In this document: positions 4,299 to 9,561 of the stretch, one piece after another
Layout: each line of letters starts with the position of its first letter
How positions within the stretch are numbered: the stretch's first letter is position 1
Assembly: GCF_002847305.1 (NCBI RefSeq)
Contig: NZ_CP025408.1
Location: forward strand, 2,191,001-2,255,000
Length of the DNA: 64,000 nucleotides
Source of the DNA: Paracoccus tegillarcae
GTDB lineage: Bacteria; Pseudomonadota; Alphaproteobacteria; Rhodobacterales; Rhodobacteraceae
Direction of reading: 5' to 3'
Made by a program: the position numbers and the translations under genes
The notes under the pieces: generated by a model
Database searches by the model: none
Told to the model about the DNA's origin: nothing
Seen by the model: the letters and a program-made list of their open reading frames with translations, nothing else

Positions 4299-5663
4299 AT
4301 GATCCAGAATCCGCCCAATCTGCGCCCCGATCTTGCCCGCGCCCATATCCCCGAAACGCGGCGCGACGGCCAGCCGACCATCGGCATGGTCAGCCTTGGC
4401 TGTCCCAAGGCGCTGGTCGACAGCGAACGCATCCTGACCCGCCTGCGCGCCGAGGGCTACGCGATCAGCCCCGACTATTCCGGCGCCGATGCGGTGATCG
4501 TGAACACCTGCGGCTTTCTGGACAGCGCCAAGGCGGAATCGCTGCAGGCCATCGGCGAGGCCCTGCAGGAAAACGGCAAGGTGATCGTGACCGGCTGCCT
4601 TGGCGCCGAGCCCGACTATATCACCGGCGCCCATCCCAAGGTGCTGGCGGTGACGGGCCCGCACCAATACGAACAGGTGCTCGACGCCGTGCACGGTGCC
4701 GTGCCGCCCAGCCCCGATCCCTTCATCGACCTGCTGCCCGCATCCGGCGTCACCCTGACGCCCCGGCATTACAGCTATCTCAAGATCTCCGAGGGCTGTA
4801 ACCACAAATGCAAATTCTGCATCATCCCCGATATGCGCGGCCGCCTGGTCAGCCGCCCCGCCCATGCGGTGATCCGAGAGGCCGAAAAGCTGGTCGAGGC
4901 CGGGGTCAGGGAACTGCTGGTCATCTCGCAGGACACCTCGGCCTACGGGCTTGACCGCAAGTTCGAAACCGAACGCGGCCACCGCTCGCATATCGTCGAT
5001 CTCGCCCGCGATCTGGGCGGTCTGGGCGCATGGGTGCGGCTGCACTATGTCTACCCCTATCCCTATGTGCGCGACCTGATCCCGCTGATGGCCGATGGGC
5101 TGGTGCTGCCCTATCTGGACATCCCGTTCCAGCACGCCCACCCCGACACGCTGAAACGCATGGCGCGCCCCGCCGCAGGGGCCAAAACGCTGGACGAGAT
5201 CGCCGCATGGCGCGCGGTCTGCCCCGACATCACCCTGCGCTCGACCTTCATCGTCGGCTATCCCGGCGAGACCGAGGCAGAGTTCCAGACCCTGCTCGAC
5301 TGGATGGACGAGGCGCAACTGGACCGCGTCGGCGCCTTCCAATACGAAAACGTCGCCGGCGCGCGCGCCAACGCGCTGCCCGACCATGTGCCGGCTGACG
5401 TCAAACAGGACCGCTTTGACCGCTTCATGCAAAAGGCGCAGGCAATCTCCGAGGCCAGACTGGCCGCCAGGGTCGGACGCCGCATCGAGGTGATCGTGGA
5501 CGAGGTCGACGCCGACGGCGCCACCTGCCGCACCAAGGCCGACGCCCCCGAAATCGACGGCAACCTGTTCATCGACGAAGGCTTCGAGGCCCTGACCCCC
5601 GGCGACATCGTCGAGGTCACGGTAGACGAGGCCGGCGAATACGACCTCTGGGGCCGCCTCTAG
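4299..5663 (+). CDS. rimO: Ribosomal protein uS12 methylthiotransferase RimO
   Basis: Radical SAM enzyme that adds a methylthio group to an aspartate of ribosomal protein uS12. The 454-residue chain has the MTTase N-terminal domain with its three cluster cysteines (C35 in [10 protein letters not shown]71 in NTCGFLD, C100 in TGCLG), the radical-SAM motif C167-x3-C171-x2-C174 in [10 protein letters not shown], and a C-terminal TRAM domain ending in [18 protein letters not shown] is characteristic of RimO rather than MiaB. The ATG at 4299 was selected because family members begin shortly before this motif; an in-frame ATG at 4281 is possible. The reading frame stays open upstream to 3756, but that part overlaps the opposite-strand gene and is not conserved in style. 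Confidence 0.95.
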
Positions 5664-5922: not shown

Positions 5923-6999
5923 TCATTCCGCACTTGTTTCTTCTTCCCCTTCTAAAGGTCTAAGCGAGGCATCCTCGAAGTCCAGACATTCTGGGGATAA
6001 TGTGTCTTCATCGCCATTATTGCCTCCGTCGATTTCCGTTTTCTTCTCACCTTCAAGGTGTTTGGAAATAATCTCTCTGTGCTCGGAATAGCTTTCGGGA
6101 AAACCAACTTCGTTGGCGTTGCTATCAGCTTTTAACATTATTTCGTCTGTCCCAACCACTTTACAATAAGCGGCTAGGTATGATGAAACCTTGGCTGGGT
6201 TGGGGGACTCATCTTCTCGAAGCACTTCCCGCTCAAGCTGCTTTGCATCCCGTGTCGGAAGGAGGTCCATCGTGTCTATGAACAATAACGGATAGGGCTC
6301 ATTCTTGTTTACGCCCTTTAAAACCATGGGGCGCTCCATGCGAACTTGGTATCCGAAGCTCAGATCTGGACCATCAGTTGCGAGGAGGCGCGCCAATTGA
6401 ACGCTTAGCACAAACCTGTCCGGCTGCGCCTTATCTGCCACTCGAAATCCTGTATCTATCGCCTTGCCAAGGAAATCGAATTCGAATGGTTTCTCATCTG
6501 CCGAACGCTCTAGCGCCTCAGATGCAGGTAGTAGTTCTGGGCCGCCATGGCCTGTCCTTAGTTGTACAGTGCGATTAGGTTCAGGAAAGGCCGCCAGCCA
6601 GCCTGCACCTTTAACGTTCAATTCAACGTCTTGATCTTTAAGAGCTTTGCGATAATGGTATAAGGTTTTCACGAATGCATGGAGCGCGACAGCACATGAC
6701 TTTTTATTCGTAACGCGTCCGCAGAAAACAAGCTCGTCACCGACGGCCTTCCAAAGCTGCGGACACGTATCCGCACCTACGCTAGCATTCTTTTGCTGCT
6801 GAAACTCATGTGCAAATAAGCTTGGGAAATCGGAGTAGAAACTCTGGAATACAGTCACCCAACTTGGCGTTGCCCCAGCCTTTCTGGCCTCACCCTCTTT
6901 AGAATTCTTGAACGCAGTAGACCCGCTAAGGTCTACGGACAAAAACAAGCGTATGCGGTAGTCTGCAGCTTCGAATCTTAGCGTTTCAAGTTCGGGCAT
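5923..6999 (-). CDS. Class III nucleotide cyclase-like protein
   Basis: A 358-residue cytoplasmic protein not matched to a named family, but with the class III nucleotidyl cyclase pattern over residues 15-205. Metal-binding aspartates are D23 in SVDLSGSTAF and D88 in WKAVGDEL; K84 sits where the base-contacting lysine lies in adenylyl cyclases. DFLGKAIDTGFR (175-186) aligns with the D-x-x-G-x-x-V-N-x-x-x-R block: D175 and R186 are kept, while the transition-state asparagine is D182. After about 245 the chain is unassigned and ends in a strongly acidic tail (about 315-358). The start overlaps the upstream metalloprotease gene by 14 bp, so they are co-translated. G+C is far below neighbours: I counted 26 of 60 bases at 6061-6120 against 44 of 60 at 9001-9060. 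It may make a cyclic nucleotide signal; a Pycsar-like defence role is a hypothesis only. Confidence 0.7.
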   Translation of the reverse strand: MPELETLRFEAADYRIRLFLSVDLSGSTAFKNSKEGEARKAGATPSWVTVFQSFYSDFPSLFAHEFQQQKNASVGADTCPQLWKAVGDELVFCGRVTNKKSCAVALHAFVKTLYHYRKALKDQDVELNVKGAGWLAAFPEPNRTVQLRTGHGGPELLPASEALERSADEKPFEFDFLGKAIDTGFRVADKAQPDRFVLSVQLARLLATDGPDLSFGYQVRMERPMVLKGVNKNEPYPLLFIDTMDLLPTRDAKQLEREVLREDESPNPAKVSSYLAAYCKVVGTDEIMLKADSNANEVGFPESYSEHREIISKHLEGEKKTEIDGGNNGDEDTLSPECLDFEDASLRPLEGEEETSAE

Positions 7000-7546
7000 G
7001 TATTCCCAACGTCTTTGCCCTCACCTCAACCGCTGCCTGTGTGACACCAAACGTCTCGCTGGCGACGCCGTTATGATACGCATTAAAAAAATCTTCCTTT
7101 GGCATGAGGAAGGCAGATGCAAACCAGTTTGCCTCCCATTCACACCTAACCAGAGTTCTGTCGCTCTCATCAACCCAGCGTGTGGCGCGCATACCATTCC
7201 CTGCGTGAGCCTTTTTCACCCTTGGCCAGTGCAGCAAAAGATGTCCTAGTTCATGCGCAACTGTGAAATTATCGCGAAGCGCTCCTGTTTCAGACGAAAG
7301 ATGAATGACAAAGGACCCATCAGGCTCCACTAAGATGGCATCGGTCTGATCATCGTCGAACATCCCAATGTATTCGATTTTGCCACGATTCCGGGACACA
7401 AGCTTGGGTAAGTCGAAACCGCTGGTGAGACCGACTTTCGCTCTTAGATTTTCTGCAAAAGCCCAAACATTAGATTTGCTTGCTTGTGAAGGGATGGGGG
7501 GCAGATGCTCATACTCATGTGTTTTGCTCTGCGCACCAGGCATCAT
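6986..7546 (-). CDS. ImmA/IrrE family metallo-endopeptidase
   Basis: Zinc protease-like protein of 186 residues. The HExxH motif is VAHELGHLLLHW with H98, E99 and H102; the usual downstream glutamate is in CEWEANWFASAFLMP (E138). ImmA of ICEBs1 and IrrE of Deinococcus cleave DNA-binding repressors; members also occur as toxins or defence components. No helix-turn-helix is fused here and no repressor gene is adjacent, which is unusual because the target is often encoded next door. It is the first gene of a two-gene unit with the cyclase-like gene (14-bp overlap). The start has AGGAG 8 bases before the ATG; a second ATG follows immediately. AT-rich like its partner. Confidence 0.85.
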   Translation of the reverse strand: MMPGAQSKTHEYEHLPPIPSQASKSNVWAFAENLRAKVGLTSGFDLPKLVSRNRGKIEYIGMFDDDQTDAILVEPDGSFVIHLSSETGALRDNFTVAHELGHLLLHWPRVKKAHAGNGMRATRWVDESDRTLVRCEWEANWFASAFLMPKEDFFNAYHNGVASETFGVTQAAVEVRAKTLGIHART

Positions 7547-7773: not shown

Positions 7774-7813
7774 GCTGCGCTGACAAGATCAGGGCTGCGC
7801 TGACAAGATCAGG
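7774..7813. repeat. Perfect 20-bp tandem duplication
   Basis: The unit GCTGCGCTGACAAGATCAGG occurs twice with no spacer (7774-7793, 7794-7813). Each contains the small palindrome CTGA-N5-TCAG, and a reversed CCTGAT lies at 7768-7773, so the sites could be operator-like. It sits where base composition returns to host values, so it could also be a scar of insertion. Confidence 0.85.
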
Positions 7814-7881
7814 AATGATGCACTCACCGCGAACGCTGGCTCCGTCCCGATAACCGCCCCGCGCTGCAACACCACCGTTCT

Positions 7882-7903
7882 CAGCCTGTGTACAGCCTGT
7901 GTA
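7882..7903. repeat. 11-bp tandem duplication
   Basis: CAGCCTGTGTA is repeated twice head to tail (7882-7892, 7893-7903). It is probably replication slippage in the fdhD leader; no function is evident. Confidence 0.8.
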
Positions 7904-8078
7904 CGCGCTGTGCGCATCCGGTGCACGCTCTGTGAGGCCTGAAACCCGGCGTTTTATGGCTTTCCCGGCGCACCCGCCAAACACCGCCCCGCCGCGCACC
8001 GAACCGCCGCTGTTGCGCAACACCCCGGCCCGTGAACGCCCCTTGCAGCCCCCTCGTGCAAAGGTCAGACTGCGGCCC

Positions 8079-8960: not shown

Positions 8961-9561
8961 TCTGCCGGGCGTGATCCTTGCGGGTGGCCGTGCGACCCGG
9001 ATGGGCGGCGGCGACAAGGGGCTGCGGATGATCGGCGGCCAGAGCCTGCTGACCCGCGTGATAGCCCGGATGTCGGCACAATGCGCCCCACTGGCACTGA
9101 ACGCCAATGGCGATCCGGCACGATTTGCCGCGCTGGATTTGCCGGTGCTGCCCGACAGCATCGACGGCTATGCCGGACCGCTGGCCGGTGTTCTGGCGGG
9201 GCTCGATTGGGCGGCGGGGCAAGGCGCTGCGGCCATCGTCACCGCCGCCGCCGACACGCCTTTCTTTCCCGATGACCTTGCAACGCGGCTGAAGGACGCC
9301 GCCGGGCCGTCGGGTCTGGCGCTGGCCGCCAGCCCCGATGCCGAGGGCGTGGTCCGGCGTCACCCGACCTTTGGTCTGTGGCCCGTCGCGCTGCGTGACG
9401 ATCTGCGCAGCGCCTTGCAGGGCGGTTTGCGCAAGATCGTGATCTGGACCGAGGCGCATGGCGCAGGCCAGGCCGTCTGGCCCTCCGATCCGTTCGATCC
9501 GTTCTTCAACGTCAACACGCCCGAGGATATCACCACGGCGGAAGGTCTGACCACGGCATGA
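8953..9561 (+). CDS. mobA: Molybdenum cofactor guanylyltransferase MobA
   Basis: Transfers GMP from GTP to molybdopterin to form the guanine dinucleotide cofactor used by DMSO-reductase-family enzymes such as formate dehydrogenase. It is 202 residues, the usual length, and has the nucleotidyltransferase signature VILAGGRATRMGGGDKGL near the N-terminus, followed by the AADTPFFP loop with the metal-binding aspartate. The start overlaps the end of fdhD (ATGACTGA), and its own end overlaps mobB by 4 bp. A CTP-using MocA paralogue is less likely given the fdhD and mobB context. Confidence 0.93.
   Translation: MTDLPGVILAGGRATRMGGGDKGLRMIGGQSLLTRVIARMSAQCAPLALNANGDPARFAALDLPVLPDSIDGYAGPLAGVLAGLDWAAGQGAAAIVTAAADTPFFPDDLATRLKDAAGPSGLALAASPDAEGVVRRHPTFGLWPVALRDDLRSALQGGLRKIVIWTEAHGAGQAVWPSDPFDPFFNVNTPEDITTAEGLTTA

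Follow-up and report, generated by a model that had tools for sequence, protein, structure and literature searches.

In IrrE and CapP the protease is fused to a sensor domain. The pair of adjacent genes analysed here likewise encodes an ImmA-type protease, but it lacks the sensor of IrrE/PprI and any linked repressor of the DdrO type or, as for ImmA of ICEBs1, of the ImmR type. In the case of CapP/CapH, where an ImmA-type protease is found with an HTH repressor of defence loci, the difference is that no CapH-type HTH gene is adjacent to this pair. Instead, the partner of the protease is a predicted class III nucleotide cyclase. The partners of COG2856 named in the available part of Makarova et al. 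2009 (PMC2701414) are Xre, PIN, and RelE, and no nucleotide cyclase is named there. Xre-COG2856 toxin-antitoxin pairs have an adjacent or fused Xre HTH, of which there is none in this unit. Nucleotide cyclases are found in two-gene units in the Pycsar systems, where the cyclase PycC is accompanied by a PycTM or PycTIR effector that carries cyclic-nucleotide-binding and killing domains.

Locus and base composition

The protease gene (6986..7546, minus strand, 186 aa) and the cyclase gene (5923..6999, minus strand, 358 aa) overlap by 14 bp (6986..6999, minus strand). According to the list of open reading frames in the window, which is the whole 64,000-nucleotide stretch of DNA that was analysed, they are the only genes between rimO, which ends at 5663, and fdhD, which starts at about 8079 and is followed by mobA, mobB, and moeA; these flanking genes were named by reading their translations, without a family search. 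These coordinates bear out the earlier note, which had described two genes with a 14 bp overlap standing alone between rimO and the molybdenum genes. The two genes are likely to be translationally coupled across the overlap, and in homologous loci too the frames often overlap or stand only a few bases apart.

The 1624 bp unit has a G+C content of 49.5%, against a mean of 62.6% (sd 2.7) for sliding windows of equal size across the whole window, and is close to the minimum of 49.3% found there. Third-position G+C is also low, 0.47 in the cyclase and 0.49 in the protease, against 0.86 in rimO and 0.83 in fdhD. The earlier note had reported the low G+C relative to the flanks from counts of 26 of 60 (6061-6120) and 44 of 60 (9001-9060), which were exact on recount. 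Together, the composition of the unit and its third positions, when set against those of the flanking genes, would suggest that the pair is of foreign origin.

Between the pair and fdhD, 5' of the pair, there is a perfect tandem repeat with a 20 bp unit (7774..7813, no strand), close to the point at which G+C regains its normal level, and it is possible that this repeat is an insertion scar. A comparison with the loci of 23 relatives, made to place the insertion site, did not find fdhD in the approximately 1.5 kb that follows rimO there; rimO was the one part to align, and no empty site could be defined. Half-sites resembling TGTGYAC are clustered at 7880-7940 of the window, upstream of fdhD, with a similar cluster 5' of the pair at a single locus that appears under both handles, L002 and L009. 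A 63 bp match (76%) is also present upstream of the pair in this locus. No RNA family was found at the gathering threshold, and promoter-like and terminator-like sites are not in excess over shuffled sequence.

The protease gene

The first gene encodes a minimal M78 zinc protease of the ImmA type, which matches PF06114 (1.9e-14, 54 bits against a cut-off of 22) and carries the zinc motif HELGH at residues 98-102 (7241..7255, minus strand). H98, E99, and H102 are each present in 62 of the 64 aligned protease rows. By structure comparison, the predicted fold is that of the IrrE/CapP peptidase domain, the alignment covering chain residues 6-186 of CapP and 11-170 of IrrE. As the protein stops at residue 186, and it is residues 6-186 of the 278-residue CapP chain that align, the protease has no C-terminal sensor domain. 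CapP has 291 aa in 7t5t, against 186 aa here, where the protein ends after the peptidase part and the neighbouring gene is the cyclase. The host genome encodes three M78 proteins in total.

The assignment to the ImmA/IrrE type, without a fused or adjacent repressor, agrees with what had been read from the sequence before. Neither the open reading frames of the window nor the domain search revealed an HTH repressor, fused or adjacent, or an Xre HTH at the pair. The partner of the cyclase is a single-domain protease and the unit has no further gene. Domain and profile searches recognised no cyclic-nucleotide-binding domain in either protein, and no effector with such a domain is adjacent to the pair, as had also been claimed.

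The cyclase gene

The class III cyclase homology domain spans residues 11 to 245, approximately, of the 358 aa protein, and is followed by C-terminal helices and an acidic tail. Residue conservation was assessed over 77 cyclase sequences, those of 76 loci and the window, two of which are without the N-terminal part. Asp23 (6931..6933, minus strand), at the position of the first metal ligand, is Asp in all 75 sequences that have a letter there. The motif WKxxGDE, with the codons of Lys84 to Asp88 at 6736..6750 (minus strand), runs from the position of the base-recognising Lys to that of the second metal ligand; among the 75 sequences with a letter there, Lys84 is present in 74, with Arg in the other, and Asp88 in all. 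The codons for Asp175, Asp182, and Arg186, spaced by 7 and 4, are at 6442..6477 (minus strand). Asp175 is present in 71 of the 77 cyclases (Glu in 6), while Asp182 and Arg186 are present in every one. These residues are kept across Alphaproteobacteria, other Pseudomonadota, Actinomycetota, Verrucomicrobiota, Leptospira, and phages, so that the nucleotide cyclase residues noticed earlier are real and conserved in the alignment.

The spacing of Asp175, Asp182, and Arg186 is that of Asp1018, Asn1025, and Arg1029 of mammalian adenylyl cyclase. Lys84 and Asp175 look like the base-recognising pair of the adenine type, and this makes ATP the first guess for the substrate, as judged from these residues. 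The active site is near-complete, but at position 182 all 77 cyclases have Asp where the canonical class III enzymes have the transition-state Asn, which makes cyclase activity uncertain. Phe185, which is also invariant in these cyclases, is not standard for class III, and with two such departures the product is hard to predict with confidence.

In the structure model the protein is predicted to have the class III cyclase homology fold, with both metal-binding Asp residues present, and the C-terminal end is of low confidence. Within the acidic tail (window 5926-6015) a short L-x-P-L is common to the rhodobacteral relatives and absent from the distant ones. It is possible that this is a docking or a cleavage site.

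Searches with the sequence of the window cyclase gave no match at E≤1 in Pfam, PADLOC, NCBIfam, or PDB sequences, and no known family was found for the gene by sequence. A profile of the cyclase family against PDB matched Rv1900c (1ybt, 0.002) and a designed protein (0.21). Across 91 cyclase members the only PADLOC match was to the candidate-defence model PDC-M02A, in 2 members (0.0038). In a viral fold library there were five matches at E≤0.001, to proteins of the giant-virus type. There is no Pycsar entry among the 50 VIA rows listed, which carries no weight on the question of kinship. The host genome has three PF00027 cNMP-binding proteins, all far from the pair, and no match to the class III model PF00211.

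Pairing of the two genes

One genome per species was scanned for the first sample, giving 72 loci that encode the cyclase. Three of these (L008, L010, L057) have no room upstream of the cyclase and were set aside. In 64 of the remaining 69 loci the cyclase is immediately preceded, on its own strand, by an M78-like gene. This number includes L058, despite its broken cyclase frame and gap of 269 bases, and most of the M78-like genes overlap the longest cyclase frame or lie within a few bases of it. The HExxH motif is present in 62 of the 64 adjacent partners. The two without it, in L073 (5502-6026) and L074 (9351-9947), are diverged, but a profile from which they had been excluded still detects them, at 1.2e-4 and 6.6e-8; each retains the C-terminal part of the M78 protein.

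The five cyclase loci that have no M78 neighbour (L041, L043, L044, L045, L049) have neighbouring genes in common and are on contigs named Caulobacteraceae, Phenylobacterium, or just Alphaproteobacteria or Proteobacteria. In these, the stand-alone cyclase follows a transporter of the POT type, as read from the translation. It is possible that the stand-alone cyclase has been domesticated in contigs of the Caulobacteraceae/Phenylobacterium kind.

The second sample of 397 genomes of the phylum yielded 20 genomes with matches, the window's own among them, and 22 stretches were drawn from the others, the weak match G547 being left out. The HExxH protease is directly upstream of the cyclase in 18 of the 22; the four exceptions are two loci of one genome (L147, L157), one at a contig end (L159), and one that is partial (L164). 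Two of the stretches (L144, L154) duplicate loci of the first sample exactly, and 16 of 20 are paired when these are removed. Those that remain are 25–64% identical to their nearest relative in the first sample. The recurrence of the pairing, in 64 of 69 and 18 of 22 loci, is far beyond chance, and the co-occurrence of homologues proposed in the earlier note is thereby upheld.

Relatives of the protease scoring above 200 bits are present in 3 of 395 genomes of the family, which are the same three that have a full-length cyclase, the next best score being 95 bits, with scoring limited to 8 first-look candidates in each genome. The pairwise distances for the protease and for the cyclase correlate over 65 pairs (Pearson 0.85), a value not reached in any of 2000 permutations; this set excluded truncated loci, those in which no protease adjoins the cyclase, and L073 and L074. 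This correlation is compatible with co-inheritance of the pair or with a common species history.

There is no fusion of the protease and the cyclase among the loci read. An upstream frame of 1126 aa in L054 was considered as a fusion, but its sole match is to M78, at its end, and it is best seen as a shadow frame that continues into the protease gene. A Pfam scan of ten relatives over their whole length found a C-terminal XRE-type HTH in the Aquabacter cyclase alone (L011:9986-11353), and a C-terminal NUDIX domain in the cyclase at L163:1335-2804, where the adjoining protease has HELGH.

Distribution and carriage on mobile elements

Within the genus the pair is present in 2 of 37 genomes, including the window's own, and within the family the cyclase is present in 4 of 395, one of these being a fragment at a contig end. 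Relatives are found in Alphaproteobacteria, other Pseudomonadota, Actinomycetota (mycobacteria, Gordonia, Arthrobacter, and Microbacterium), Verrucomicrobiota, and others. Cyclase matches are present in seven plasmid records, with Leptospira, Mycolicibacterium, Tistrella, and Sphingomonas represented, and in seven phage records, with LE1, phiC2, and phiCD27 among them. Of the seven phage and plasmid stretches opened, six have both genes side by side, and the seventh, from Tistrella, is unannotated. The first gene is M78 by profile in L075 to L078 and by annotation in L077, L078, L080, and L081. Two pattern scans of viral contigs gave no confirmed relatives.

In phiCD27 and phiC2 the pair is located between the endolysin and the integrase, and in phiC2 there is an annotated AbiF homologue between the endolysin and the holin. 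On the Mycolicibacterium plasmid (L078:1343-5192) an operon with a Mov34/MPN gene is near the pair, with a second ImmA/IrrE gene immediately upstream of the operon, which may, as a guess, be a ubiquitin-like conjugation system.

Defence genes in the neighbourhood

For 29 loci, the genes lying up to 5 kb from the pair were compared with those of 29 control stretches from elsewhere on the same contigs. There were 287 genes listed near the pair and 304 in the controls, and the scan covered 277 of each. It excluded L060 and its control L141 entirely, the last gene of L034, and 15 control genes of the first half, mostly at the ends of stretches, that were removed by hand; proteins above 700 aa were shortened to 700 aa. 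At a best E≤1e-50, a threshold picked after the lists had been inspected, there are 12 PADLOC names near the pair and 2 in the controls (Fisher p 0.012). Two of the 12, DpdF and C3a206, seem to be generic matches to a helicase and a hydrolase, and p is 0.037 when they are dropped. Near the pair the names are a type IIG enzyme, BovA, PDC-S05, PDC-S02, PDC-S23, GajA, GajB, DpdF, a type II methyltransferase, C3a206, MzaA, and PDC-S14, and in the controls ShosA and SoFic. PsyrT and RTasHel are the same proteins as DpdF and GajB, and were not counted. The counts are of names rather than proteins, DpdF, GajA, GajB, and MzaA having been traced to their proteins, and because one PADLOC list covers 25 of 57 families, weaker matches are not evenly countable.

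The first half of the loci alone gave 6 names against 1 in an older count, which is not significant (p 0.12). In Arthrobacter the Gabija genes GajA and GajB are directly upstream of the pair (L070:6037-9188). Among the first 25 of 133 families, from half of the loci, the neighbours of the pair are largely metabolic, which speaks against a typical dense defence island. Because of the unusual codon usage of the pair, the gene caller overlooked one or other of its two genes in 14 of 30 loci, and foreign neighbours have perhaps been under-counted; open reading frames in gaps were added to both the near-pair and the control sets. The enrichment that the earlier note proposed to test is present as a modest excess in the full set, and is absent at significance from the first half alone.

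Function of the pair

The reading preferred here, with a probability of about 0.4, is that the pair is a horizontally spread two-protein signalling module in which the cyclase gates the ImmA-type protease. The cyclase would be the sensor and signal subunit of the protease. It would sense a cue, probably infection or other stress from mobile elements, and make or bind a nucleotide, while the protease, having no C-terminal sensor domain of its own, would be physically paired with the cyclase and gated by it. Once activated, the protease would cut a target whose gene lies elsewhere, either a host regulator or a phage protein, and this would lead to dormancy, death, or a changed gene programme. 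The order of the overlapping genes, protease then cyclase, mirrors the order of the protease and sensor domains in IrrE and CapP.

The partners that have lost HExxH in L073 and L074, together with the five loci that have the cyclase only, suggest that the cyclase is the constant part of a physical partnership, and in those lineages the protease cannot be the output. They complicate the signal-activated protease of the earlier note, which stands as one of several possible directions of control. They also keep alive a rather unlikely reading that makes the cyclase the effector, with the M78 protein as its regulator, holding it or trimming it, for example at the variable acidic C-terminal tail, until a cue frees the cyclase and a flood of cyclic nucleotide acts through cyclic-nucleotide-binding proteins of the host. 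The three PF00027 proteins of the host, away from the pair, would fit such a role, as would a genome with nothing matching PF00211, and the end of the cyclase is both of low confidence in the model and the site of the XRE HTH (L011) or NUDIX (L163) domain in relatives. Against this, HExxH in 62 of 64 adjacent partners means that protease activity is under selection, and ImmA-type proteases cleave HTH repressors, according to the available part of PMC2701414, an HTH within the unit having been seen once.

That cleavage of repressors is also the precedent, from the same part of PMC2701414, for a further reading, which is doubtful and less probable than the last, in which the pair is a regulator of mobile elements rather than a defence. 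The protease would inactivate the repressor of an element or prophage, as ImmA does for ICEBs1, and the cyclase would report the energy or nucleotide state of the host, and so time induction. In LE1 the annotation of the protease gene reads transcriptional regulator, "immunity region protein in prophage", with a gene noted as CI repressor about 1.7 kb away, and in phiC2 two genes annotated as putative transcriptional regulators start some 1.9 kb upstream. In the window, however, no repressor, integrase, or other element gene adjoins the pair, and the module holding it in phiC2 and phiCD27 is termed lysogenic conversion in the part of a review available (PMC4009436). Two overlapping genes with a patchy and plasmid-borne distribution might also be thought of as a nucleotide-gated stabilisation module resembling a toxin-antitoxin, with one protein toxic and the other restraining it. 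The Leptospira plasmid copy is directly before genes annotated as DUF433 and DUF5615 PIN-like, the Mycolicibacterium copy is about 4.7 kb from an Xre/MbcA-RES pair, and COG2856 is listed as a candidate toxin with Xre partners in the available part of PMC2701414. Against this reading, which is highly improbable, there is no adjacent Xre antitoxin in the window, and two proteins with conserved catalytic sites are unusual for toxin-antitoxin pairs.

Conflict with phages and mobile elements is favoured over housekeeping for this pair, given its patchy spread and its carriage by phages and plasmids, and its role is perhaps defence against viruses. These observations, with the modest excess of defence families nearby, lend indirect support to the defence role that had been put forward. 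More tentative than gating itself is the wider proposal that the pair represents a so far undescribed signalling system, mobile and widespread, with direct control of an ImmA-type protease by a class III cyclase, or of the cyclase by the protease; this would be a proteolytic arm of cyclic-mononucleotide immunity, with a separate cyclase replacing the fused sensor of IrrE and CapP. Signalling in such a system may even be inhibitory, in that the nucleotide would keep the protease inactive for as long as no phage enzyme removes it.

Comparison with known systems

The earlier interpretation had likened the pair to Pycsar, and the likeness is that of a nucleotide cyclase in a mobile two-gene unit. 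The partner in the window is a protease with no recognised cNMP-binding domain, unlike the Pycsar effectors. No Pycsar model was matched at E≤0.01 in PADLOC by the 91 cyclase members, although a distant kinship is compatible with absence from the model library. The residues for UTP or CTP given in the available part of PMC11224242 differ from the adenine-type Lys and Asp of the window cyclase, although one UTP enzyme in that part also has a Lys in its pocket. The analogy is therefore weak, and of the interpretation as a whole it is the co-occurrence, the predicted fold, and the lack of a known cyclase family that held, with defence supported indirectly.

The class III cyclases Ma1120, Rv1900c, CyaB, and mammalian AC differ from the window cyclase, which has no Pfam sequence match, has Asp182 in place of their conserved Asn, and has in addition a C-terminal helical extension and a partner protease.

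The pair itself was known earlier as unnamed ORFs. LE1 ORF2/ORF1, phiC2 p42/p41, and phiCD27 orf38/orf37 are all members, in which the cyclase-like gene comes after an M78 gene, entered as DUF955 for phiC2, and the phiC2 record notes the similarity to LE1 ORF1 and ORF2. In the part of PMC4009436 available, a DUF955 enzyme is described beside a CDS of low similarity to TcdB in the lysogenic conversion module of phiC2 and phiCD27, and no cyclase is named. In the literature searched, CC-licensed papers in PMC, there is no paper describing the pair as a protease-cyclase system.

If the gating proposed here is true, it would give a testable function to genes of the well-known phages LE1, phiC2, and phiCD27, and to a cyclase family without a match in Pfam. 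It would also provide a protease output for bacterial cyclic-nucleotide signalling and a new mode of control for the ImmA/IrrE proteases, joining two families hitherto studied separately, the repressor-cutting proteases of stress responses and the class III cyclases that are best known from cAMP signalling and Pycsar.
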